The notes below the pieces were generated by a model, which was not told where the DNA came from, made no database searches, and worked only from the letters and a program-made list of their open reading frames with translations. From positions 62,001 through 126,000 of the forward strand of contig JAHLKG010000032.1 of the NCBI GenBank assembly GCA_025526995.1: a stretch of 64,000 nucleotides of DNA, read 5' to 3'. Of this stretch, positions 48,401 through 63,436 are shown piece by piece. The stretch is from Powellomyces hirtus (Eukaryota > Chytridiomycota > Chytridiomycetes > Spizellomycetales > Powellomycetaceae). Every line of letters starts with the position of its first letter. Positions within the stretch are counted from its first letter, which is position 1. The position numbers were made by a program, and so were the translations under genes.

Positions 48401-48842
48401 GAACATACAAAACGGTCGCGCTCCAAGGTATGCTGTTTGTTTTGAATGGGATCCCGAGTTCTGTGAGGACTATGGGCACCTGCTGTGCTTCCAGGGTTTG
48501 AAGTATGTTTTGGTGACACCTGACGACGTTGTGTGCAGATGTCTCATTTGCAGGTAAGGATGGAGCTCTGTTGTGCTGGTTCTGCGATACTGATGTTCTG
48601 AATTGCACAGGAAGCAGTGGGTTAACCTCTTTAAAGTGGAACAGGAGGGAATGCAGCGTCAGATGTGTCACAACATAAAAGAATGTTGCACGCTGCACAC
48701 CTGTGGAGAAAATAACCCTTGTATTTTGTGTGAGAGCTGTTCATGGGGTCTGGTGCATTGGAGTGGAGAAGGATGCTGCCAAAGATGCAACAAGTGGGAT
48801 TGTCAACTGAGATGGTGGTTGCGGCGGGTGAATTTCAATTAA
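48401..48842 (+). pseudogene. Antisense RING gene of copy D (diverged)
   Basis: Homologous to the intact RING gene at 58881-59321. Exon 1 runs to 48553 and exon 2 is 48611-48842, with the same donor and acceptor positions. The start codon is lost (ATG is ATA), and the first Cys-X2-Cys pair of the RING is gone, although EFCEDYGHLLCF is still alignable. Exon 2 is fully open for 77 codons, with CGENNPCILCESCS and LRWWLRRVNFN conserved. An open frame is notable because the pol of the same copy is full of stops. Confidence 0.7.
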
Positions 48843-48880
48843 ATTTGGCTTGGTTTTGTTTGGAATCCAGTTTGGTGTTG

Positions 48881-49143
48881 TGTTCAAACTGGACTTGTGA
48901 GATAAACCTGTCAAATCGACAGCGCTCCAAGACCCCACGCCACTTCTGCTGCACACTGGTGCTTCATTTACCCGCGTATGATTAGATAGCTTGCACAGCC
49001 ACCTTTCTTCTTCTTAGCGTAGATCTCTTTCACCCATTGTTTACTAAAAAAAAAAACCAACAACACAACATTCCATTGTCATTGAGAGTGTCGAGCTAGC
49101 TTTCCTCTGTTGCACTACCCCTTAACCGGACCTACGCACAACA
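48881..49143 (+). repeat. 5' LTR of the outer element
   Basis: Starts TGTTCAAACTGGACTTGTGA and ends CGGACCTACGCACAACA (263 bp). It carries an A11 run preceded by GTTTACT. The second base after the TGTT terminus differs from the 3' LTR (C against G). Confidence 0.88.
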
Positions 49144-49157
49144 GGTTATGAGCCCTG
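49144..49157 (+). other. Primer-binding site, initiator tRNA-Met anticodon arm
   Basis: GGTTATGAGCCCTG directly abuts the 5' LTR. Its reverse complement, CAGGGCTCATAACC, is the anticodon arm of fungal initiator tRNA-Met (yeast sequence recalled; CAT is the anticodon). Drosophila copia and yeast Ty5 prime from this internal site with a half-tRNA, so the same mode is inferred. Confidence 0.8.
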
Positions 49158-49224
49158 ATAGCCCGCTCAACGCTTAAAATGACGAGTTCCCTGTATCCTT
49201 CTTCTCGTTGTTCAATACTCAATC

Positions 49225-50487
49225 ATGCCATTGTCCCGTAGCCCCGTTCGGACCCGGTCCGGAACAAACACTGCGCCTGCGCCGATGCAGGCTTCTGCAG
49301 ATGGGGGTCCTTGCAGCAAGGACGACAGAGGTCGAACCGGTCGACCTGACGATGCGGTCGTCACTAAGGAGTATTTGGAGAAGGCGCTGTTGGAATCCCA
49401 ACACATTACCGCCGAAATGCAGGAACGCATGCTGCTAGAATCGCAGCGACTTGCCGCCGAGTCACAACGAGAGATGATGGAGAAGATGATCTCCACTTTT
49501 GCACAGATGCACATGCAGACGGCCGCCGCTGCAAACTCTCAAGTCTTCCCGGAAGACCGCCCAGACTCTCGTTCGTTGGAGAACTCTTCTCCCACTTTGT
49601 CCTCGATGAATCCTGTTGCAAAGGAGCTTCCTAAGCAGGTTCCTAACTTCAACGGTTTTGCAACTGCTTCTCAAATTCATTGCAAAACTAGACGACTTCT
49701 TTGAAGTTGCATACCTTCCGCCGCTTCTTGAAACAAAGATGGCAGGGAGCAAACTCACATCCACCACTCACATTTGGTGGAGAACTCATGAAAGTCAGGG
49801 GAACGCTCCCCAAACGTGGAATCTTCTCAAAACATCGCTTTCTTTGAGGTTCACACCACCTGTGTTCAGTTTGATACTCTGTGATGAGCTGGATGGTCTC
49901 TTACAAACCACGTCGGTAGTTGCATACCACAACGTGTTCAACAAGCTTGTCATGCAAATCCTTGACATGAACAAAGGAGAGGTCGAGCACTGCTATCTCA
50001 AGGGACTCAAATGTCCCATCTATTCGGCCATCATCTGGAAGAATCTTTTGAATTTAGACATCATGCAGGAAGCTGCAACTTGTCAGGAACAACTTACCTC
50101 AGAACGGGGCACTTGCGCACTCTTAAACGGTCTTCTGTTGAGGCTTATGTGATGCACGGCGGCCTGGCCGCCAACGTCAACGTCAACACACACGCGCATC
50201 AAAAACCGTGGAAAACGTATCCATGGAAGGATCAACAACAACGTCGCTGTTTAGTCCCAGGGTCTCCTTGTCATCTCTGTGAACAAACTGGTCATTGGAT
50301 GAAGGACTGCCCGCAAATGAGAAATGCGCGTGCGCTTCTCAAACAACATCAACAGGGACCCGCTGCAGAAGCAAACCTCGTTTTGGCAACGAACACAGAT
50401 CCTCACACTCAATTGCTCTAGACTCTTGCGCAACACATCATATCATCAAGGACGCTATCCTTCTCACCGACCTGCGACCCATCCCGG
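49225..50487 (+). pseudogene. Outer element gag and start of protease (frame-broken)
   Basis: Nucleocapsid/capsid region in three frames. Frame 1 (49225-49704) is coiled-coil rich (KEYLEKALLESQHITAEMQE) and ends near QVPNFNG. Frame 2 carries FIAKLDDFFEVAYLPPLLET and HCYLKGLKCPIYSAIIW. Frame 3 carries the zinc knuckle CHLCEQTGHWMKDC (CX2CX4HX4C). The first two breaks are identical in the inner copy. A third, private one (near 50394, one C fewer than inner) separates the knuckle from the protease block SIALDSCATHHIIKD. The usual DSG of copia protease reads DSC. The region ends where the inner element is inserted. Confidence 0.75.
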
Positions 50488-50744
50488 TGTTGTGCGTAGG
50501 TCCGGTTAAGGGGTAGTGCAACAGAGGAAAGCTAGCTCGACACTCTCAATGACAATGGAATGATTGTGTTCTTGGTTAGAGTAAACAATGGGTGAAAGAG
50601 ATCTGCGCTAAGAAGAAGAAAGGTGGCTGTGCAAGCTACCTAATCATACGCGGGCAAATGAAGCACCAGTGTGCAGCAGAAGTGGCATGGGGTTTTGGAG
50701 CGCTGTCGATTTGACAGGTTTATCTCACAAGTCCAGTTTCAACA
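50488..50744 (-). repeat. 3' LTR of the inner element
   Basis: 257 bp, reading TGTTGTGCGTAGG...CAGTTTCAACA on the plus strand, i.e. TGTTG...CAACA in element sense. It pairs with 55587-55843. Confidence 0.88.
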
Positions 50745-50768
50745 CTCGCCCGACTTTTGAGACCAAAC

Positions 50769-51209
50769 ATGCCACAAAATGGTCAAGCTCCAAAGTGTCC
50801 CATTTGTCTTTTTCAAGACGCCAAGTTCTGTGGGAGCTGCGGACACCTGTTTTGCTTCAAGTGTTTGCAGTACAGTTGGGTGGCATCTAACGACGCTGCA
50901 CACAGATGTGCTATCTGCAGGTGAAGAAGGAGTTCCGTTGTGCTGGTTTCAGGGTATTGATGTTTTGTAATGCACAGGAGGTCGTGGGTTAACCTCTTCA
51001 AAGGGGACATGATGAGAAAGCGGTGTGCAATGTGTCATATGGAAAAGAACTGTCGGACGCCGCACGCATGTGGAGAAAATGACCCCTGTTTTCTGTGTGA
51101 GAGCTGTTCACGGGGTCTGGTGCATTGAAGTGGAGAAATACGCTGCCCGAAATGCAACAAGTCAGACCGTCGATTGAGATGGTGGTTGCGGCGGGTGTAT
51201 TTCAACTAG
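50769..51209 (+). pseudogene. Antisense RING gene of the inner copy, one nonsense change
   Basis: Exons 50769-50920 and 50978-51209 have the same architecture as the intact gene at 58881-59321. All RING cysteines and the His are present in exon 1 (CPICLFQDAKFC, CGHLFCFKC, CAICR). In exon 2 a TGA (51126-51128) replaces the CGA codon of the intact copy, a C-to-T transition at a CpG. The reading frame is otherwise open to the TAG at 51207. Confidence 0.8.
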
Positions 51210-51383
51210 ACTTATGACGTGCGTATATCAATGAGATTTGGCGTAGTCTGATTTTGTTCAGAGTCCAGTTCGGTGTCGCAGATCATCAAGTAATGGACGA
51301 GGTAGCGGTTTTGTCAGGGCGTCAGCCAGCATGAGCTTGGACTCAGTGTACTGTAGGTGAATGCGCTCGTTACCGACAAGGTC

Positions 51384-54300
51384 TCACAGAAAGTGATAAC
51401 GGACGTCGATGTGTTTGGTTTGTTGGTGATGCGTTGGATTGGCAGCAAGCTTGATAGCGGCCTGATTGTCCTTGTAGATGAGAACTACTGTCTGCTCCGT
51501 TGCTGACAGTTCGGATAGGAGACCCTGGATCCAGAGTGCTTCCTTTGCACATTCCGCGAATGCAATGTATTCTGCTTCTGCTGTGGATAGTGCCGTTGAT
51601 TTTTGACGTTGAGATTTCCATGAAATGGCAGCTCCGTTGAGCATGAATACATAGCCAAAGGTTGAGCGACGTGTGTCCGTACAGCGTGCGTAGTCGGCAT
51701 CCGAATATCCGACAATGTCTCCCCCATCTTTGAAGACAAGAGAGAGATCACTGGTTGTGTTTGCATACGCGCAAACTTTCTTTGCGGCCGTCATGTGTGC
51801 AGCCGTCGGTACTGCCAGAAACTGAGATAAGTGGGAGACTGAGTAGGCCAGGTCGAGGCGAGTCCCTAACATCAGATACATTAGTGTTCCAAAGATTGAC
51901 TGATATTCCTTGATTCCTGATGCGTCAAGGGCGTCGGCTCCATCGTTCGCATTTAGATGTAAGTTTGGGTCCATCGGGATGTGATGCAGCTGCATGCCGT
52001 TAAGGTTAAACTTGTTGATCATGTTTTTGATGTACTTCTGTTGGCCAATGGTAATGCAGCGCTTTGACCGGTCGCGCGTAATCTGGAGACCAAGAAGGAA
52101 AGAGATCTCCCCCATGTCCTCCATCTTAAAGCGTTCGGCAAGCGCGGATTTGAGAGCGAGCAGGTCATCAAGGTCTGATGCAAAAATCGTGAGATCATCC
52201 ACATAGACAGCAACAATCAGGATCTTTGTGTTGTCAGTCCGCTTGATGTAGAGCGCGGTGTCGAGTTCTGATACTGAGAACCCGAGCTGTTGAAGGAAGG
52301 AGTCGAGAACCTTGTTCCATAGGTGTGGCGATTGTTTAAGGCCGTAAAGAGAACGGCGTAGTTTGACAACGTCGTCAGCGACGCCGGCTGGGAGCTGCAT
52401 CCAGATTTCTACGTCGAGATCTCCATTGAGAAATGCGGTGATGACATCCATCTGATGGACATGAAGGTCGAGCTTAGCGGCAAGCGCGAGTAGCACCCGC
52501 AAGGTGTTAAACTTGACGACGTGCGCATACGTTTCGTTGAAGTCAATGCCTTCACGCTGCGTGAAGCTTCGGGCGACGAGGCGGGCTTTGAACTTCTTGA
52601 TGGAACCATCGGCGTTGCGTTTGACTTTGAAGACCCATTTGGAATCAACAAGGTGAGTGCCGGACGGTGTTTGCGTGGTATCCGTGTCCCACGTCTTGTT
52701 AGTGCGGTGAGATGACAGTTTGGCGTCGATCGCTTGTTTCCACTCTTTTGCATACGGCGAGTTGACCGCCGCCTGGTAAGTGGCGGGCTCGTCAATGTCA
52801 GTGCTGCATGCGGCATGCAGTTCGGCAATTACGGGTGTGCCGTCATCTTCAATTCCGGTGAATCGCGTCAGGGCCTCTGAATCCTTGACGTTGTTGAGGG
52901 GTTCCCATGTTGGTTCGTTGTAGCCAAGCCACTTGACCAGGAATTCCTCTCCCCCTTTGCCGTTGCAAGAGAGTAAGATGCACTCAACCACATATTTGGG
53001 AGTGGTGTCGCTCTGAGCGACAGGACTGATGTAATCAGCCTTGTTGATTGTGACGTCTTGTGCGTCAATGATCGAATCCGTCGATGCATCATAAAGGCGA
53101 TAGTTGCCTTGTTTAGTGGGGTGATATCCCACTAGTCGGAACGGTCCGACTGCGCAAGCTCTGAGCTTGCGGTGTGTGCGACGGTGCACAGGTTGATGCA
53201 TATAGGCCACACTTCAGATGGTGCGGAGGTTTGATACATTGGCAAGGGTCCCAAACCAACGTTGGTATGGGGTCTCTCCGTTGAGAGACGTTGATGGCGT
53301 CCGTTGACGCAGATAGTTGACGGCCATAGCGAGTTCTCCCCAAAGTTTGAAAGGAGCGCGGCTGTCATGAAGAATCGCTTGGACCTGGTCCATGAGCGTA
53401 CGGTTGAACTGTTCAGCAATGCCATTTTGCTGAGAGAAGTACGGATGAGTGGGGTTTAACGTGATCCCGTCGGCGTGCAGCTCAGCCTGTAGGGGATAGT
53501 ATTCACCGCCGTTATCGCAGCGCAGCTCCTTAATCTTGGAGTTGAGGTGACGTTCAGCGTATGCACAATAGTTTGGCCAATAATCATTGGTTTGATCTTT
53601 GGTCTTGAGGGGGTAGATGACGGAATACTGTGTGTATTAGTCAATGAACATGAGGATGTAGCGGGCGCCAGAGAGAGAGAGAAGACTGGCGCCCATGTCA
53701 AGGATGTCCAAATGTATACAATCAAGAGGTTTGGTCGCAGGTCGAGGGTTTTGCCCATTGAAGGGCAGCCGGGTGGATTTACCGAGAGAGCAGCCGGAGC
53801 ACAATGCGTGTTCCAGTTCGACGTTGTTTGGCAGATCAAGAGAATAGATCAGATTCGCAGCTTGAAGCGCTCGTTGTCCGATGTGCCCAAAGCGTTGATG
53901 CCATAGTTCATAGACATTGCGGTCCTTTGTTTTGCAGTTTCGGTTGCAAAAGCAGCAGCGGTTGTTCTCGACGTAGCCATCGATAAATGGCTGGTTTCCG
54001 TTGTGGCGGAGCGGCAGGATGACGCGGCCGTCCTTTGAAATAGAGGAACCTTTAGTTGAGAACGTAATCTCATAACCTCCCTGGTTCAAGGGCGATGTGG
54101 AAACCAAATTGCGGCTTGCGTCGGGTACGTAGAGCACGTTGACGCAGACTATCGCTTCGTCCGTGTCGTTATTGTTGACGGTGAGCGTGCCTGCTTGACA
54201 AGCGATGAGGTTTTTGCCATTTGCGACGCTGATTTGAACTGCCGGGATGGGTCGCAGGTTGGTGAGAAGGATAGCGTCCTTGATGACGTGATGCGTTGCG

Positions 54301-55505
54301 CAAGAGTCTAGAGCAATTGAGTGCGAGGATCTGTGGTTCGTTGCCAAAACGAGGTTTGCTTCGGCAGCGGGTCCCTGTTGATGTTGTTTGAGAAGCGCAC
54401 GCGCGTTTCTCATTTGCGGGCAGTCTTTCATCCAATGACCAGTTTGTTCACAGAGGTGACAAGGAAACCCTGGAACTAAGCGACAACATTGTTGTTGATT
54501 CTTCCGTGGATACATTTTCCATAGTTTTCGATGCGTGTGTGTGTTGACATTGGCATTGGTGGCTGGGCCACCGTGCATCACATGAGCCTCAACAGAAGAC
54601 CGTTTAAGAGTGTGCAAGTGCCCCGTTCTGAGGTAAGCTGTTCCTGACAAGTTGCAGCTTCCTGCATGATGTCTAAATTCAAAAGATTCTTCCAGATGAT
54701 GGCCGAATAGATGGGACATTTGAGTCCCTTGAGATAGCAGTGCTCGACCTCTCCTTTGTTCATGTCAAGGATTTGCATGACAAGCTTGTTGAACACGTTG
54801 TTGTATGCAACTACCGACGTGGTTTGTAAGAGACCATCCAGCTCATCACAGAGTATCAAACTGAACACAGGTGGTGTGAACCTCAAAGATAGCGATGTTT
54901 TGAGAAGATTCCACATTTGGGGAGCGTTCCCCTGACTTTCATGAGTTCTCCACCAAATGTGAGTGGTGGATGTGAGTTTGCTCCCTGCCATCTTTGTTTC
55001 AAGAAGCGGCGGAAGGTATGCAACTTCAAAGAAGTTGTCTAGTTTTGCAATGAATTTGAGAAGCAGTTGCAAAACCGTTGAAGTTAGGAACCTGCTTAGG
55101 AAGCTCCTTTGCAACAGGATTCATTGAGGACAAAGTGGGAGAAGAGTTCTCCAACGAACGAGAGTCTGGGCGGTCTTCCGGGAAGACTTGAGAGTTTGCA
55201 GCGGCGGCCGTCTGCATGTGCATCTGTGCAAAAGTGGAGATCATCTTCTCCATCATCTCTCGTTGTGACTTGGCGGCAAGTCGCTGCGATTCTAGCAGCA
55301 TGCGTTCCTGCATTTCGGCGGTAATGTGTTGGGATTCCAACAGCGCCTTCTCCAAATACTCCTTAGTGACGACCGCATCGTCAGGTCGACCGGTTCGACC
55401 TCTGTCGTCCTTGCTGCAAGGACCCCCATCTGCAGAAGCCTGCATCGGCGCAGGCGCAGTGTTTGTTCCGGACCGGGTCCGAACGGGGCTACGGGACAAT
55501 GGCAT
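51384..55505 (-). pseudogene. Inner element gag-pol
   Basis: gag occupies 55505-about 54250 in three frames, broken at the same two places as the outer copy. From 54719 one frame runs without interruption through the zinc knuckle, protease (SIALDSCATHHVIKD), the integrase HHCC (WHQRFGHIG...CSGC) and the first catalytic Asp. It stops at a TAA after YILMFID, where the outer copy has GAA. A second stop (TGA for TGG) lies before VAYMHQPVHRR near 53211. The 608-aa remainder holds the integrase C-terminus, chromodomain (about 53005-52857), reverse transcriptase with YVDDLTIF and RNase H. The canonical RLVARGFTQ reads RLVARSFTQ. Confidence 0.85.
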
Positions 55506-55572
55506 GATTGAGTATTGAACAACGAGAAGAAGGATACAGGGAACTCGTCATTTTAAGCGTTGAGCGGGCTAT

Positions 55573-55586
55573 CAGGGCTCATAACC
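55573..55586 (-). other. Primer-binding site of the inner element
   Basis: CAGGGCTCATAACC on the plus strand, i.e. GGTTATGAGCCCTG in element sense, directly inside the 5' LTR. It is identical to the site in the outer copy and complementary to the initiator tRNA-Met anticodon arm. Confidence 0.8.
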
Positions 55587-55843
55587 TGTTGTGCGTAGGT
55601 CCGGTTAAGGGGTAGTGCAACAGAGGAAAGCTAGCTCAACACTCTCAATGACAATGGAATGATTGTGTTCTTGGTTAGAGTAAACAATGGGTGAAAGAGA
55701 TCTACGCTAAGAAGAAGAAAGGTGGCTGTGCAAGCTATCTAATCATACGCGGGTAAATGAAGCACCAGTGTGCAGCAGAAGTGGCGTGGGGTCTTGGAGC
55801 GCTGTCGATTTGACAGGTTTATCTCACAAGTCCAGTTTCAACA
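55587..55843 (-). repeat. 5' LTR of the inner element
   Basis: 257 bp, matching 50488-50744 except for six transitions. It lies head-to-head against the pol half of the outer element, so it looks like an inverted repeat of the outer 3' LTR. Confidence 0.88.
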
Positions 55844-55848
55844 CCCAG

Positions 55849-58706
55849 CAGTTCAAATCAGCGTTGCAAACGGCAAAAACCTCATCGCTTGTCAAGCAGG
55901 CACGCTCACCATCAACAATAACGACACGGACAAAGCTATAGTCTGCGTCAACGTGCTCTACGTACCCGACGCAAGCCACAATTTGGTTTCCACATCGCCC
56001 TTGAACCAGGAAGGTTATGAGATTACGTTCTCAACTAAAGGTTCCTCTATTTCAAAGGACGGCCGCGTCATCCTGCCGCTCCGCCACAACGGAAACCAGC
56101 CATTTATCGATGGCTACGTCGAGAACAACCGCTGCTGCTTTTGCGACCGAAACTGCAAAACAAAGGACCGCAATGTCTATAAACTATGGCATCAACGCTT
56201 TGGGCACATCGGACAACGAGCGCTTCAAGGTGCAAATCTGATCGATTTTCTCGATCTGCCAAACAACGTTGAACTGGAGCACGCGTTGTGCTCTGGCTGC
56301 TCTCTCGGTAAATCCACCCGGCTGCCCTTCAATGGGCAAAACCCTCGACCTGTGACCAAACCTCTTGATTGCATACATTTGGACATCCTTGACATGGGCG
56401 CCAGTCTTCTCTCTCTCTCTGGCGCCCGCTACATCCTCACGTTCATTGACGAATACTCACAGTATTCCGTCATCTACCCCCTCAAGACCAAAGATCAAAC
56501 CATTGATTATTGGCCAAACTATCGCGCATACGCTGAACGTCACCTCAACTCCAAGATTAAGGAGCTGCGCTGCGATAACGGCGGTGAATACTATCCCCTA
56601 CAGGCTGAGCTGCACGCCGACGGGATCACGTTAAACCCCACTCATCCGTACTTCTCTCAGCAAAATGGCATTGCTGAACAGTTCAACCGTACGCTCATGG
56701 ACCAGGTCCAAGCGATTCTTCATGATAGCCGCGCTCCTTTCAAACTTTGGGGAGAACTCGCTATGGCCGTCAACTATCTGCGTCAACGGACGCCATCAAC
56801 GTCTCTCAACGGAGAGACCCCATACCAACGTTGGTTTGGGACCCTTGCCAATGTATCAAACCTCCGCACCATCTGGAGTGTGGCCTATATGCATCAACCT
56901 GTGCACCGTCGCACACACCGCAAGCTCAGAGCTTGCGCAGTCGGACCGTTCCGACTAGTGGGATATCACCCCACTAAACAAGGCAACTATCGCCTTTATG
57001 ATGCATCGACGGATTCGATCATTGACGCACAAGACGTCACAATCAACAAGGCTGATTACATCAGTCCTGTCGCTCAGAGCGACACCACTCCCAAATATGT
57101 GGTTGAGTGCATCTTACTCTCTTGCAACGGCGAAGGGGGAGAGGAATTCCTGGTCAAGTGGCTTGGCTACAACGAACCAACATGGGAACCCCTCAACAAC
57201 GTCAAGGATTCAGAGGCCCTGACGCGATTCACCGGAATTGAAGATGACGGCACACCCGTAATTGCCGAACTGCATGCCGCATGCAGCACTGACATTGACG
57301 AGCCCGCCACTTACCAGGCGGCGGTCAACTCGCCGTACGCAAAAGAGTGGAAACAAGCGATCGGCGCCAAACTCTTATCTCACCGCACTAACAAGACGTG
57401 GGACACTGATACCACGCAAACACCGCCCGGCACTCACCTTGTTGATTCCAAATGGGTCTTCAAAGTCAAACACAATGCCGATGGTTCCATCAAGAAGTTC
57501 AAAGCCCGCCTTGTCCCCCGAGGCTTCACGCAGCGTGAAGGCATTGACTTCAACGAAACGTATGCGCCCGTCGTCAAGTTTAACACCTTGCGGGTGCTAC
57601 TCACGCTTGCCGCTAAGCTCGACCTTCATGTCCATCAGATGGATGTCATCACCGCATTTCTCAATAGAGATCTTGACGTAGAAATCTGGATGCGGCTCCC
57701 AGCCGGCGTCGCTGACGACATTGTCAAACTACGCCGTTCTCTTTACGGCCTTAAACAATCGCCGCACCTATGGAACAAGGTTCTCGACTCCTTCCTTCGA
57801 CAGCTCGGGTTCTCAGTATCAGAACTCGACACCGCGCTCTACATCAAGCGGACTGACAACACAAAAATCCTGATTGTTGCCGTCTACGTGGATGATCTCA
57901 CGATTTTCGCATCAGACCTCGATGACCTGCTCACTCTCAAATCCACGCTTGCCGAACGCTTCAAGATGGAGGACATGGGGGAGATCTCTTTCCTTCTCGG
58001 TCTCCAGATTACGCGCAACCGGTCAAAGCGCTGCATTACCATTGGCCAACAGAAGTACATCAAAAACATGATCAACAAGTTTAACCTTAACGGCATGCAG
58101 CTGCATCACATCCCGATGGACCCAAACTTACATCTAAATGCGAACGATGGAGCCGACGCCCTTGACGCATCAGGAATCAAGGAATATCAGTCAATCTTTG
58201 GAACACTAATGTATCTGATGTTAGGGACTCGCCTCGACCTGGCCTACTCAGTCTCCCACTTATCTCAGTTTCTGGCAGTACCGACGGCTGCACACATGAC
58301 GGCCGCAAAGAAAGTTTGCGCGTATGCAAACACAACCAGTGATCTCTCTCTTGTCTTCAAAGATGGGGGAGACATTGTCGGATATTCGGATGCCGACTAC
58401 GCACGCTGTACGGACACACGTCGCTCAACCTTTGGCTATGTATTCATGCTCAACGGAGCTGCCATTTCATGGAAATCTCAACGTCAAAAATCAACGGCAC
58501 TATCCACAGCAGAAGCAGAATACATTGCATTCGCGGAATGTGCAAAGGAAGCACTCTGGATCCAGGGTCTCCTATCCGAACTGTCAGCAACGGAGCAGAC
58601 AGTAGTTCTCATCTACAAGGACAATCAGGCCGCTATCAAGCTTGCTGCCAATCCAACGCATCACCAACAAACCAAACACATCGACGTCCGTTATCACTTT
58701 CTGTGA
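55849..58706 (+). CDS. Outer element pol: integrase, chromodomain, reverse transcriptase, RNase H
   Basis: The 3' part of a copia polyprotein, open for about 950 codons. The open frame extends upstream to 55770, but those codons are inner-LTR sequence. Residue numbers count from 55770. Zinc-binding HHCC ~138-177 (WHQRFGHIG, CSGC). Integrase DDE: Asp in HLDILDMG (~203), Asp in RCDNGGEY (~267), Glu in GIAEQFNRTL (~302). Chromodomain ~441-490: YVVECILLSC, EEFLVKWLGY, TWEP. Reverse transcriptase from ~556 (VDSKWVFKVK, DFNETYAPVVKF, HQMDVITAFL) with YVDDLTIF at ~706. RNase H from ~872 (GYSDADYA, TALSTAEAEYIA). It ends at a TGA where copy D has CAA, which removes the last ~45 family residues. The domains are intact but lack gag continuity. 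Confidence 0.9.
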
Positions 58707-58880
58707 GACCTTGTCGGTAACGAGCGCATTCACCTACAGTACACTGAGTCCAAGCTCATGCTGGCTGACGCCCTGACAAAACCGCTACCTCGTCCATTAC
58801 TTGATGATCTGCGACACCGAACTGGACTCCGAACGAAATCAGACTATGCCAAATCTCATTGATATATGCCCGTCATAAGT

Positions 58881-59321
58881 CTAGTTGAAATACACCCGCC
58901 GCAACCACCATCTCAATCGACGGTCCGACTTGTTGCATTTTGGGCAGCGTATTTCTCCACTTCGATGCACCAGACCCCGTGAACAGCTCTCACACAGAAA
59001 ACAGGGGTCATTTTCTCCACATGCATGCGTCGTCCGACAGTTCTTTTCCATATGACACATTGCACACCGCTTTCTCATCATGTCCCCTTTGAAGAGGTTA
59101 ACCCACGACCTCCTGTGCATTACAAAACATCAATACCCTGAAACCAGCACAACGGAACTCCTTCTTCACCTGCAGATAGCACATCTGTGTGCAGCGTCGT
59201 TAGATGCCACCCAACTGTACTGCAAACACTTGAAGCAAAACAGGTGTCCGCAGCTCCCACAGAACTCGGCATCTCGAAAAAGACAAATGGGACACTTTGG
59301 AGCTTGACCATTTTGTGACAT
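58881..59321 (-). CDS. Antisense two-exon RING-type zinc-finger gene carried by the copia element
   Basis: Lies between pol and the 3' LTR, opposite in strand to the element. Exons 59321-59170 and 59112-58881 flank a 57-nt GT-AG intron and give 127 aa with no stops. Exon 1 encodes a RING finger: CPICLFRDAEFC, CGHLFCFKC and RCAIC. Exon 2 encodes a second Cys/His cluster: CAMCHMEKNC, CGENDPCFLCESCSRG, IRCPKCNK, then the basic LRWWLRRVYFN tail. The E3-ligase-like role is inferred. The intron survives retrotransposition because the element's genomic RNA is the opposite strand. Homologous copies lie at 50769-51209 and 48401-48842. I know of no such accessory gene in copia elements. Confidence 0.8.
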
Positions 59322-59330
59322 GTTTGGTCT

Positions 59331-59345
59331 CAAAAGTTGGGGGAG
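59331..59345 (+). other. Polypurine tract of the outer element
   Basis: CAAAAGTTGGGGGAG directly precedes the 3' LTR, the expected position of the plus-strand DNA primer. The inner copy has AAAAGTCGGGCGAG at the same place. Confidence 0.6.
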
Positions 59346-59609
59346 TGTTGAAACTGGACTTGTGAGATAAACCTGTCAAATCGACAGCGCTCCAAGACCC
59401 CACGCCACTTCTGCTGCACACTGGTGCTTCATTTACCCGCGTATGATTAGATAGCTTGCACAGCCACCTTTCTTCTTTTTAGCGTATATCTCTTTCACCC
59501 ATTGTTTACTAAAAAAAAAAACCAACAACACAATCATTCCATTGTCATTGAGAGTGTCAAGCTAGCTTCCCTCTGTTGCACTACCCCTTATCCGGACCTA
59601 CGCACAACA
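59346..59609 (+). repeat. 3' LTR of the outer element
   Basis: 264 bp, TGTTGAAACTGG...CGCACAACA, followed by the TGTTG target duplication. Same orientation as 48881-49143. Confidence 0.88.
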
Positions 59610-59614
59610 TGTTG

Positions 59615-61640
59615 CAGATCGTTAGTACTGGACAAGGTAGCAGGTTTGTCAAGGTGTCAGCAAGCATGGGCTTGGACTCAATGGACTGTAGGTGAATGCG
59701 CTTGTTGCCAACAAGGTCTTGCAGAAAGTGATAATGGGTGTCAATGTGTTTGGTCTTTTGGTGATGTTTCAGATTGGCCGCAAAGTTGATAGTTGCCTGA
59801 TTGGCCTCATAAATGGAAACTGCAGTCTGTTCCGTTGCTGACAGCTTAGATAGGAGACCTTGAATCCAGAGTGTTTCCTTCACGCATTCTGCAAATGCAT
59901 GGTATTCAGTTTTTGTTGTGGACAATGCCGTTGGTTTTGGACATTGAGATTTCCATGAAATGGCAGCTCCGTTGAGCATGAAGACATAGCTAGAGGTTGA
60001 GCGGCATGTGTTTCTGCAGCATACATAGTCAGCGTCCAAGTATTCAACAATGTCTTCTCTATCTTTGAAGACGAGAAAGGACTCACTGGTTGTGTTTGCG
60101 TACACGCAAACCTTCTTTGCAGCTGCCATGTGTGCAGCTGTCAGTGCCGCCAGGAACTGAGCTAGATGAGAGACAGAATAGGCAAGGTCAGGGCAAGTCC
60201 CTAACATTAGATACATTAACGTTTCAATGATTGTCTGATATTTCTTGATTCACGATGTGTTGCGAGCATCAACTCCATTGTTTACATTTAGATGTAAGTT
60301 TGAATTCATTGGGATGTAATGCAACCGCATGGCGTTGAGGTTAAATTCTTCAATCATGTTTTTGATGTACTTCTGTTGATCAATGGTGATGCAGTACTTT
60401 GACCAGTTGCACGTAATCTAAAGACTGAGAAGAAAAAAGATCTCCCCCATGTCCTCCATCTAGGAGCATTTGGCCAGCGTGGACTGGAGGGTAAGCAGGT
60501 CATCAAGATCTAATGTGCAAATTGTGAAATCATCCATTGAGACAGCAACAATCAGAATCTTTGTGTTGTCAGCCCGCTTGATATAGATTGTAGTGTCAAA
60601 CTCTGATACTGAAAACCTGAGTTGTTGAAAAAAAAAGGCAAAAACCCTGTTCCATAAGTGCGGCAATTGTTCAAGACTGTAAAGAAAACAGCGTAGTTTG
60701 AAGATGCTGTCAGCAATGCTGGCTGGAAGACGCATCCAAATCTCCTTGTCAAAATCTTTTGTGGAGAATCCAGTGATTACATCTATCTGATAGAGGTAAA
60801 GATCAAGTTTGGCGGCAAGTGGAAGTAGCACCTGCAAGGTGTTAAACTTAATGACAGTCATGTACGTTTTGTTGAAATCAGTGCCTTCACACTGCATGAA
60901 ACTTCAGACAACAAGACAGGCTTTGAACTTCATGATTTAACCATTGGCATTGCGTTTAGCTTTAAAGGCCAATGTAGGATCAACAAGGAGAACACCAGCA
61001 GTGTTCGTACGGAATCCATGTCCCACATCTTGTTTGTGCAGTGAAATGAAAAGTTGATGTAGATTGCCTGTTTTTGCTCTTTTGTGTATGGCAAGTTAAC
61101 CGCCTTCTGGTAAGTTATGGACCTGTTGATGTCAGTGCTGTATGCGGCATGCAATTTGGCGCTTATGGGAATGCAGTCATCTTTGATTCTTGTGAATTGC
61201 ATCAGGGCTCTGAATCCTTGACTGTCGCAAGGTTCTTATGCTGGTTTGTTATAGCTAGGCCACATAATCAGGAATGTCTCTTCTTCGACACTGTTATGAG
61301 AGAGTAAAACGCGCTCAACAACGTATCCAAGGATGTTATCAGCCTTGTTGACTGAAAAGTCTAGTGTGTCAACAATCAAATCTGTTGATGCATCAGAAAA
61401 GACAAGAGTTGCCTTGTTTAGTGAGGTGATATCCCACTAATTGGAAAGGTCTGACAGTGCAAGCTCCAAGCTTGCGGTGTGTGCAACGGTGCACAGGCTG
61501 ATGCATATAGGCCTCTCTCCAGATGGTGCAGAGGTTTGATACATTGGCAGGGGTCCCAAACCAGCGTTGGTATGGGGTCTCTTTTTTGAAGACGTGGACT
61601 GTGTCCGTTGATGCAGATTGTGAGATGGCCATTATGGCAT
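59615..61640 (-). pseudogene. Pol remnant of copy D
   Basis: Aligns with the pol 3' half of the inner copy in the same orientation, from RNase H (near 59700-60216, SVSHLAQFLAA, YVFMLNGAAISWKSQ) through reverse transcriptase (60460-60897) to the integrase C-terminus (61393-61632, YMHQPVHRCTHRKLGA). It has many stops and frameshifts. In one sampled 160-bp stretch most CpG sites of the inner copy are TpG or CpA here. Codon CAA in HFLQDLVG keeps the sense reading where the two younger copies have TGA. The chromodomain region (about 61200-61330) is still alignable but broken. Confidence 0.85.
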
Positions 61641-62176: not shown

Positions 62177-63436
62177 ATGGACCTAGTATTGTTACATGGT
62201 AGCACCGCCCTGTATATGACAACAATGGCACGTAGCACCAGGAACAGCCCAATGGCAGTAGGAGAACCCGAAGTCAACACACCAACCGACAACCCCATTG
62301 CAATGTTGGCTGCACAATTGGTGGGGACCCAATGCCTACTGCAGGAAGAGATCGCAATGGGAGAGGCCCGCTTTGAAGCCCTTCTCTCAAGGATTCCGAC
62401 TCCAGTCCAACCAGCGGTTGCAACACCGCATGTCAATATCCTCCTGGCGGAAGAAAACCGCACACAAATGCAAGCCGAGAAGGAACGCTGTGAGAACCTT
62501 CGCAAGCAGCTGACACACTGCAACGGAAAAGGGAACAGTCAAGAACTGGTGTCAAAGGTCAATGAGTTCTTGAAGGTCCACACACGCTACCTTGAGGCAA
62601 CCAACTTCAGGACGGACCACCGGGACATCGACCACACCTTGGGGTACCTCAAGAAAACTGCCGACGAATGGTGGCAAATGCTCAGAGATGCCGGCGACCA
62701 GCCCACAACATTGGGAGAATTCATGAGGATCCTCTGCATCCGCTTCTACCCCGCCAACTTACGAAACACCGCAGAAGCAAAGATGAAGCGGCTGGGTTTC
62801 ACTAATAGCATATTGGAGTATATCCCCAAGTTCAATACCTTTTGGGCCCGGATTGCGACGCTCAACAACAAGGAGCGGTTGACCTCAAGGCAAGAGCGTG
62901 ACTATTTCTTGACGGGATTCTTGACCAACCATGTCGGCCAGCGCATTCGGGACCACTGCTATGCTGCAATCATGAGGAATAATGGCGCCAAGATTCCAAT
63001 CACCAAGCTACAGAACAAAGCTCTACTATGCTACAGGATTTGAGGCTATGCGGACAATGTTGCGCGGGTAACCCCCAGCGGAAGGAGACGTCAGTATGCT
63101 GCAGTCCAGCCGGCTCAGGTACATCAAGGGAACTATCAAGCACAAGAAAGGGGACGCCACAGCCCCTATGGCTCAGGTCGTTCCACACGCAGTACGGACA
63201 ACCACCAAGGGATCTCACACTGCGAGTGCATCACCTATAACAAACATCGTGAACGCAACAAATGTTTCAACTGCGGAGGCAAGGGGCACTATGCCCGTGG
63301 GTGCTCAGCAGGTAAAGGTATGACCGGTGAGCATAGAACATTTGCCACCCCTGTAGAGATCACCAAAGAGCCCGGGAACGACACGGTCAGCGACGGGGGC
63401 TCAGTCAACAGCTCGGATTTTCGCCCCGGGTGCTGA
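62177..63436 (+). pseudogene. Gypsy gag with zinc knuckle, one nonsense codon
   Basis: A 288-codon capsid-like ORF with the retrotransposon gag pattern (DHTLGYLKKTADEWWQML, FMRILCIRFYP, FNTFWARIATLNNKERLT) stops at a TGA (63041-63043). The same frame stays open beyond it and encodes a basic Gln-rich linker and the knuckle CFNCGGKGHYARGC (CX2CX4HX4C), ending at TGA 63434. The in-frame stop is most simply CGA changed to TGA. A shorter start, MARSTRN, is possible. The frame changes between knuckle and protease. Confidence 0.75.

Follow-up and report, generated by a model that had tools for sequence, protein, structure and literature searches.

Does the gene that lies on the strand opposite pol, between pol and the 3' LTR of a copia element of Powellomyces hirtus, belong to that element as a working gene, and what is its origin? 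The locus is part of a 64,000-nucleotide stretch of genomic DNA (contig JAHLKG010000032.1; hereafter, the window), in which three copia copies are nested, copy X (minus strand) inside copy Y (plus strand) inside copy Z (minus strand) (Table 1). An earlier description made from the letters alone (the sequence-only reading) had reported the same antisense, two-exon RING-finger gene in all three copies, fully open in one, interrupted by a single stop in another and diverged in the third. Spliced translation of the copy Y gene (window 58881-59321, minus strand, two exons) yielded a product of 127 aa with no internal stop, and the genes of copies X and Z were also found in the states described.

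Table 1. Features of the nested copia copies in the window, and copies of the non-copia lineage elsewhere in the genome
Feature	Position	Strand	Remarks
Copy X	about 50488-55844	-	Inserted in copy Y
Copy X 3' LTR	50488..50745	-	LTR comparison
Copy X RING gene	50769..51209	+	98% identical to copy Y gene; one in-frame stop
Copy X copia pol frame	51384..53210	-	Profile-matched pol frame
Copy X 5' LTR	55587..55844	-	LTR comparison
Copy Y	48881-59609	+	Target duplication TGTTG; inserted in copy Z
Copy Y target-site duplication, left	48876..48880	+	TGTTG
Copy Y 5' LTR	48881..49143	+	About 96% like copy Y 3' LTR
Copy Y copia pol frame	55770..58706	+	Integrase, chromodomain, RVT_2; early stop at 58704-58706
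Copy Y RING gene exon 2	58881..59112	-	232 nt; rest of codon 51, residues 52-127, TAG at 58881
Copy Y intron	59113..59169	-	57 nt, phase 2, spliceosomal-type, GTGAAG..TTGAT..CACAG
Copy Y RING gene exon 1	59170..59321	-	ATG at 59321, 152 nt; residues 1-50 and two bases of codon 51
Putative polypurine tract AAAAGTTGGGGGAG	59332..59345	+	Abuts 3' LTR; within predicted leader of antisense gene; labelled by resemblance
Copy Y 3' LTR	59346..59609	+	TGTTG...CAACA; presumed antisense promoter site
Copy Y target-site duplication, right	59610..59614	+	TGTTG
Copy Z RING gene	48407..48841	+	76%; frame open, ATG gone, 4/16 ligands lost
Copy Z pol-side part	59610..61632	-	Separated from copy Z RING gene by copy Y insertion
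Non-copia homologue	C1:350938-351361		Intact, 119 aa; stop codon just beyond; protein search of genome
C34 copy			Duplicate of C1 gene; has a stop
C17 copy (L056)	C17:559327-559554	-	Exon 2 of non-copia lineage, no recognisable exon 1; part of intron readable ahead of exon 2
C3 and C5 copies			Non-copia lineage; broken

The elements are of the Ty1/copia type, since RVT_2, an integrase upstream of it, LTRs with TG..CA ends and a 5-bp target duplication (TGTTG in copy Y) are all present. The pol stop of copy Y is premature and its position in the family corresponds to 58860-58862, so that the ends of pol and of the antisense gene are 18 nt apart. The two genes are arranged tail-to-tail, with 25 nt between the ATG of the antisense gene and the 3' LTR. 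A chromodomain (PF00385, E 3.7e-7 and 6.9e-8, above cut-off) was observed between integrase and RT in both pol frames (window 55770-58706 and 51384-53210); Gypsy elements are the best-known carriers of chromodomain integrases. Near copy Z, a 288-aa frame on the plus strand (window 62177-63043) matched Retrotrans_gag just over the cut-off (E 3.2e-5).

Coding by the sense strand, including an env-like gene, was ruled out by 1-7 stops per sense frame across the region (13 copies), and an unspliced antisense frame by 2-8 stops per frame, the final stop included (13 copies). The copy Y gene, with its coding frame on the opposite strand of the interval between pol and the 3' LTR, falls under the definition of an antisense additional ORF. 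Exon 1 carries the ligand pattern C10-x2-C13-x10-C24-x-H26-x2-C29-x2-C32-x14-C47-x2-C50, which is the C3HC4 order of RING fingers, and exon 2 carries eight cysteines in the pattern C67-x2-C70-x11-C82-x5-C88-x2-C91-x2-C94-x12-C107-x2-C110. AATAAA or ATTAAA was absent within 500 nt past the stop of the antisense gene in three of the four copia copies checked.

The intron was scored in 38 of the 41 copies listed by the genome search described below (L029, L039 and L041 were left out). GT..AG was kept in every scored intron and the intron was lost in none of them. No change was seen in the 152 splice-dinucleotide cells, whereas 145 of the 2011 cells at the other intron positions had changed, a comparison for which p-values are too small because the copies are related. 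YTRAY is a branch motif of the fungal type, and a branch-site-like motif of this form was present in 36 of the 38. In copy L037 a 2-nt insertion sits inside the intron. In the sense (genomic) RNA the same intron reads CT..AC and lacks normal splice sites. Replication through sense RNA therefore preserves it, and the proposal that antisense orientation accounts for the retained 57-nt intron is supported. Intron retention of this kind illustrates a way for an intron-bearing gene to pass through the RNA stage of an element. In all 38 unspliced readings a stop codon directly follows R51, and unspliced RNA would therefore encode a RING-only protein of 51 aa; this stop is a by-product of a GTRA-type splice site in phase 2 and does not require selection. 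Use of the intron as a neutral clock was dropped, because its 57 nt include functional sites and are too few for the purpose.

In order to determine how general the gene is, its copies were counted in the whole genome (29.26 Mb in 60 contigs), as the sequence-only reading had also recommended. The eIF3 subunit L encoded by this genome shows 97% identity to the Powellomyces hirtus protein across 82% of the query, which marks the host as a chytrid. At least 41 gene matches were listed by DNA search (43 candidates, 40 scored), which is a lower bound, and 18 of the 41 listed were fully open with an ATG. Linkage was examined separately with the last 861 bases of pol as query, which gave 41 listed rows (45 candidates, 40 scored); 38 of these reached the 3' end of pol and three ended short of it. 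Among the 38 listed places that keep the pol 3' end, the antisense gene lies 1-26 nt beyond pol on the opposite strand in 37, and the remaining place is copy Z, whose gene was cut off by the nested insertion of copy Y. Conversely, four of the 41 listed gene rows had no adjoining pol, namely copy Z, C3:1049225 and fragments at C4 and C33. The antisense gene is therefore a fixed part of one copia family, occurring in every listed copy that keeps the 3' end of pol, and not an unrelated host fragment confined to a single lineage of copies, the case that had been named as refuting it. In one copia copy (C3:1784036-1788888) the pol frame of 912 aa (measured stop to stop) is overlapped by a frame of 590 aa, and the antisense gene follows. 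Around that copy, at C3:1778681-1789169, LTRs recur in 5,116-bp steps, as two family copies in tandem with one LTR common to both.

That the RING gene might be a general copia trait was also considered and was rejected, as tblastn (E up to 0.01) did not find the gene at the 3' ends of five other copia copies (L049-L053), which were drawn from more than 100 other copia copies among 150 scored RVT_2 rows. A second, much larger copia family was noted in the course of this search, with open frames of about 1361-1368 aa and many members without stops among the 150 scored of 630 RVT_2 candidates. A RING gene at C12:192607 (L060), which we take to be RNF10-like, is a separate gene and not a member of the family.

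Outside copia, an intact homologue was found at C1. It contains a 67-nt intron at the same position and in the same phase as the copia gene, and has kept 16 of 16 putative zinc ligands, compared with 43 of 103 other residues. Its RING profile score is 22.8 bits against a cut-off of 27, and it has Q where the copia copies have R51. At both C1 and C34 the RING gene is arranged head-to-head with one for a dynein light chain (recognised at C1 by Pfam, E 5.6e-38, and at C34 by DNA match). In addition, a stretch at C23 matches the C34 segment; it gives a weak TET/JBP hit (E 1.5e-4, under cut-off), and the RING gene was not found in it. The three loci (L054, L055 and L063 at C1, C34 and C23) are duplicated chromosomal segments in which a dynein light chain, a weak TET/JBP-like frame and, except at C23, the RING gene are combined.

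The C1 lineage looks like a chromosomal gene that was taken up by copia. Exaptation from copia fits too, because no relative was found among database proteins: relatives in other organisms were absent from 5.8 billion sequences, a collection that includes at least one P. hirtus protein, in a search needing shared words of five residues, and one scan of viral contigs with exon 2 gave no match. The reversed origin, by which the gene was born in the element and the C1, C34, C17, C3 and C5 copies are exapted or stranded relics, agrees with this lack of relatives, with the broken or partial state of several chromosomal copies, with their small number and with the position of the C1 and C34 copies within duplicated segments. 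We nevertheless consider it somewhat improbable, as the 0.6-2.3 kb retrieved on the expected side of the chromosomal copies contained no copia pol, and the C1 copy is intact, has an AATAAA about 40 nt past its stop and lies beside the dynein light chain gene. This alternative concerns the origin only and is compatible with the function proposed below.

The dN/dS ratio across copies had been suggested as a check of the gene, a value near 1 being counted against it. Tables of dN/dS drew on 13, 27 and 17 of the 41 gene rows. A codon model of 17 of the 18 open copies, from which L011 was excluded because its protein equals that of L010, gave an omega of 0.67 (p 0.008 against 1), below 1 for the gene as a whole, though codons 82-127 alone reached 1.02 (0.54 for exon 1 and 0.52 for codons 51-81). 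The pol control was at 0.37 (14 copies, stop codons masked as gaps). Pairwise omega was spread over 0.12-0.94 (78 pairs, 13 copies). Comparison of copy Y with L010 gave dN 0.134, dS 0.253 and a ratio of 0.53 for the gene, and dN 0.033, dS 0.129 and a ratio of 0.25 for 368 codons of pol; L017 was omitted from the pol comparison (dS 1.09, 15 stops). The frame control is soft, with pN/pS of 0.59 in frame against 0.62-0.87 in the other five frames, and the frame at 0.62 is a sense frame with 2-6 stops. These selection tests within the family are rough because the copies are related and include dead ones.

Residue changes were rare in the ligands, which were altered in 6 of 448 cells, compared with 374 of 3108 for the other residues, in 28 gapless copies. 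Survival of the gene without constraint was simulated by substitutions only, starting from L010, with 4000 trials each; the targets (copy Y, L037 and L035) were chosen because they are open. At the 54 substitutions that separate L010 from copy Y, 0.05% of trials retained an open frame with all 16 ligands; the share was 0.10% at 57 (L037), and at 77 (L035) no trial retained both. The presence of such a frame in the diverged copies is more than chance. The flank profile of L030 was not used, as it duplicates that of L035, the two genes being only 0.8 kb apart.

Against three copia copies, the C1 homologue gave pN of 0.35-0.38 and pS of 0.82-0.86, with synonymous sites saturated. Constraint over this deep split is strong, and selection inside the copia family is weaker. 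These values bear on the explanation that the gene is only a passenger, a captured fragment copied along without function and open through youth. Many copies are near-identical and young, and omega among them is only moderately below 1, as such a fragment would predict; however, frame length, ligands and splice sites are conserved between subfamilies that differ by 15-25%, pN is far below pS over the deep split, and the linkage to pol is fixed, all of which makes this explanation very improbable.

Divergence between copy Y and L010 was raised in codons 1-81 (sd 8.7 of 18 sites in the middle part) against a pol dS of 0.13, and gave a first impression of diversifying selection. Synonymous sites were raised as well, so recombination near the 3' end is an equally good explanation. 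Divergence between L010 and L001 is a mosaic, in which synonymous divergence is far above that of pol in codons 51-81 and less in codons 82-127, and recombination may have occurred near codon 81.

RING fingers are defined by the spacing of their ligands, and in exon 1 all eight occur in C3HC4 order with RING spacing, which supports the RING finger of the sequence-only reading as a RING-like motif. The profile search it had called for was in partial agreement: Pfam RING profiles matched exon 1 (E 8.6e-5 and 1.2e-4), but under their curated cut-offs (best 22.9 bits against 25.2). The Pfam matches of the copy Y protein were of RING type, together with weak zinc-ribbon, B-box and DUF matches, all under cut-off; a bZIP domain was not found in the same profile search. 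The top PDB sequence match was a complex I subunit (E 0.037, mid-protein), with RING domains from E 0.11 upwards. The model of exon 1 was only fair (pLDDT 64.6) and gave 195 PDB fold matches (best E 0.037), the best 50 of which were nearly all RING domains, with one LIM domain; the exon 2 model (pLDDT 51) was unusable.

The protein may be real without being an E3 ligase, for instance a double zinc-binding protein for nucleic acid or Gag that serves as a chaperone or in nuclear import. Its basic C-terminal tail, RRLRWWLRRVYF, is strongly conserved in the non-copia homologue too, and the C8 pattern of exon 2 is unusual and has no significant Pfam match, as might be expected of such a protein. 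I or V after C10-P and R after the last ligand are found in many active RINGs. Exon 1 has the full C3HC4 order and spacing; in most copies C10-P is followed by I or V, and R51 stands past the last ligand in seven of seven aligned copia copies. For this reason we regard a role other than ubiquitin ligation as quite unlikely.

From the observed structure, linkage, coding constraint and same-intron homologue we infer a course of expression, E3 activity, target and capture as follows. The gene probably began on a chromosome, where its transcription ran in the direction of a copia insertion, which acquired it in antisense with the intron still in place. Transcription from an antisense promoter within the 3' LTR, followed by splicing, would yield the mRNA for the 127-aa protein, while the genomic RNA, in which the intron is read backwards and could not be spliced, would hand the intron on at each transposition. 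The protein would act as an E3 ubiquitin ligase, with the RING binding an E2 and the eight-cysteine domain binding the substrate. Its target, acted on in trans, would be either a host factor that limits the element or the Gag of the element itself; we give the host factor a slight preference, since the gene evolves faster than pol. Taken as a whole, this account of an antisense-expressed, spliced accessory E3 in copia derived from a chromosomal gene has, in our estimate, an even prospect of being correct. Its most specific form is doubtful: that the captured intron-bearing RING gene became a fixed, spliced accessory ubiquitin ligase directed against a host defence protein, with the intron as a possible switch between RING-only and full-length products.

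The gene could instead serve self-limitation, the RING protein or the antisense RNA lowering Gag or genomic RNA in trans as a form of copy-number control. Ty1 is controlled in copy number by p22 and antisense RNA. Antisense transcription over the 3' end of pol could pair with genomic RNA, and dsRNA silencing is named as a possible role of such transcripts in the part of PMC7264820 available to us; HBZ of HTLV-1 is described, in the accessible text of PMC10186651, as inhibiting effects of Tax and Rex. Yet an RNA role needs no deep constraint at the protein level, and a self-limiting gene should be easily lost although this one is present in every listed copy with the pol 3' end, so we judge self-limitation unlikely. 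The intron provides a tag, since antisense reads from which it has been removed would demonstrate expression. With a strain of the chytrid in culture, both the origin and the function of the antisense gene become testable.

Among the known carriers of antisense genes, Grande, RIRE2 and Retand are Gypsy elements. Antisense extra ORFs between pol and the 3' LTR have been described in plant LTR retrotransposons, such as gene23 of Grande, RIRE2, TRP28 of Retand and PvRetro13 (PMC7264820, PMC11963269, consulted in part). The excerpt of the 2020 review PMC7264820 reports no clear similarities of their proteins except an SMC domain in PvRetro13 and gives the origin of most such ORFs as unknown. The chytrid gene is like them in place, orientation and presence in most family copies, and antisense transcription, reported for Grande, is presumed for the chytrid copia; it differs, as far as these excerpts extend, in that its element is a copia, its product is of RING type, its intron is conserved and it has a homologue outside copia. 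The word intron is absent from PMC7264820 and PMC11963269, and a whole-word search for RING gave nothing in PMC5408684 (rotifer extra ORFs) or PMC3248453 (fungal LTR elements). In the literature searched, as listings and starts of abstracts, with most subscription journals outside its scope, there was no report of an intron-bearing RING gene lying antisense in an LTR element.

Among fungi, brtn of the Boty-like elements of Botrytis cinerea (Zhao et al. 2011) is likewise an antisense extra gene in an LTR retrotransposon (PMC8365987, PMC7264820, both in part), but its element is a Gypsy element (BcGypsy1) and not copia, and the part of PMC8365987 available states neither a RING nor an intron for brtn. 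RING E3 ligases such as TRIM, CBL, RNF141 and Bre1 share the C3HC4 order and spacing of exon 1, with weak profile, sequence and fold matches, and the chytrid protein differs from them in a second, C8 cluster without significant database match and in having no sequence relative found. HBZ and APH of HTLV are similar as antisense genes whose RNA starts in the 3' LTR, as presumed for the chytrid gene, with spliced and unspliced forms of HBZ, and differ as bZIP or related regulators (APH without bZIP) of a mammalian retrovirus, HBZ expression being shown and that of the chytrid gene predicted (PMC10186651, in the portion accessible). Antisense genes near the 3' LTR are thus a recognised class, and in the chytrid copia the class of the protein can be read and a relative with the same intron is present in the same genome.
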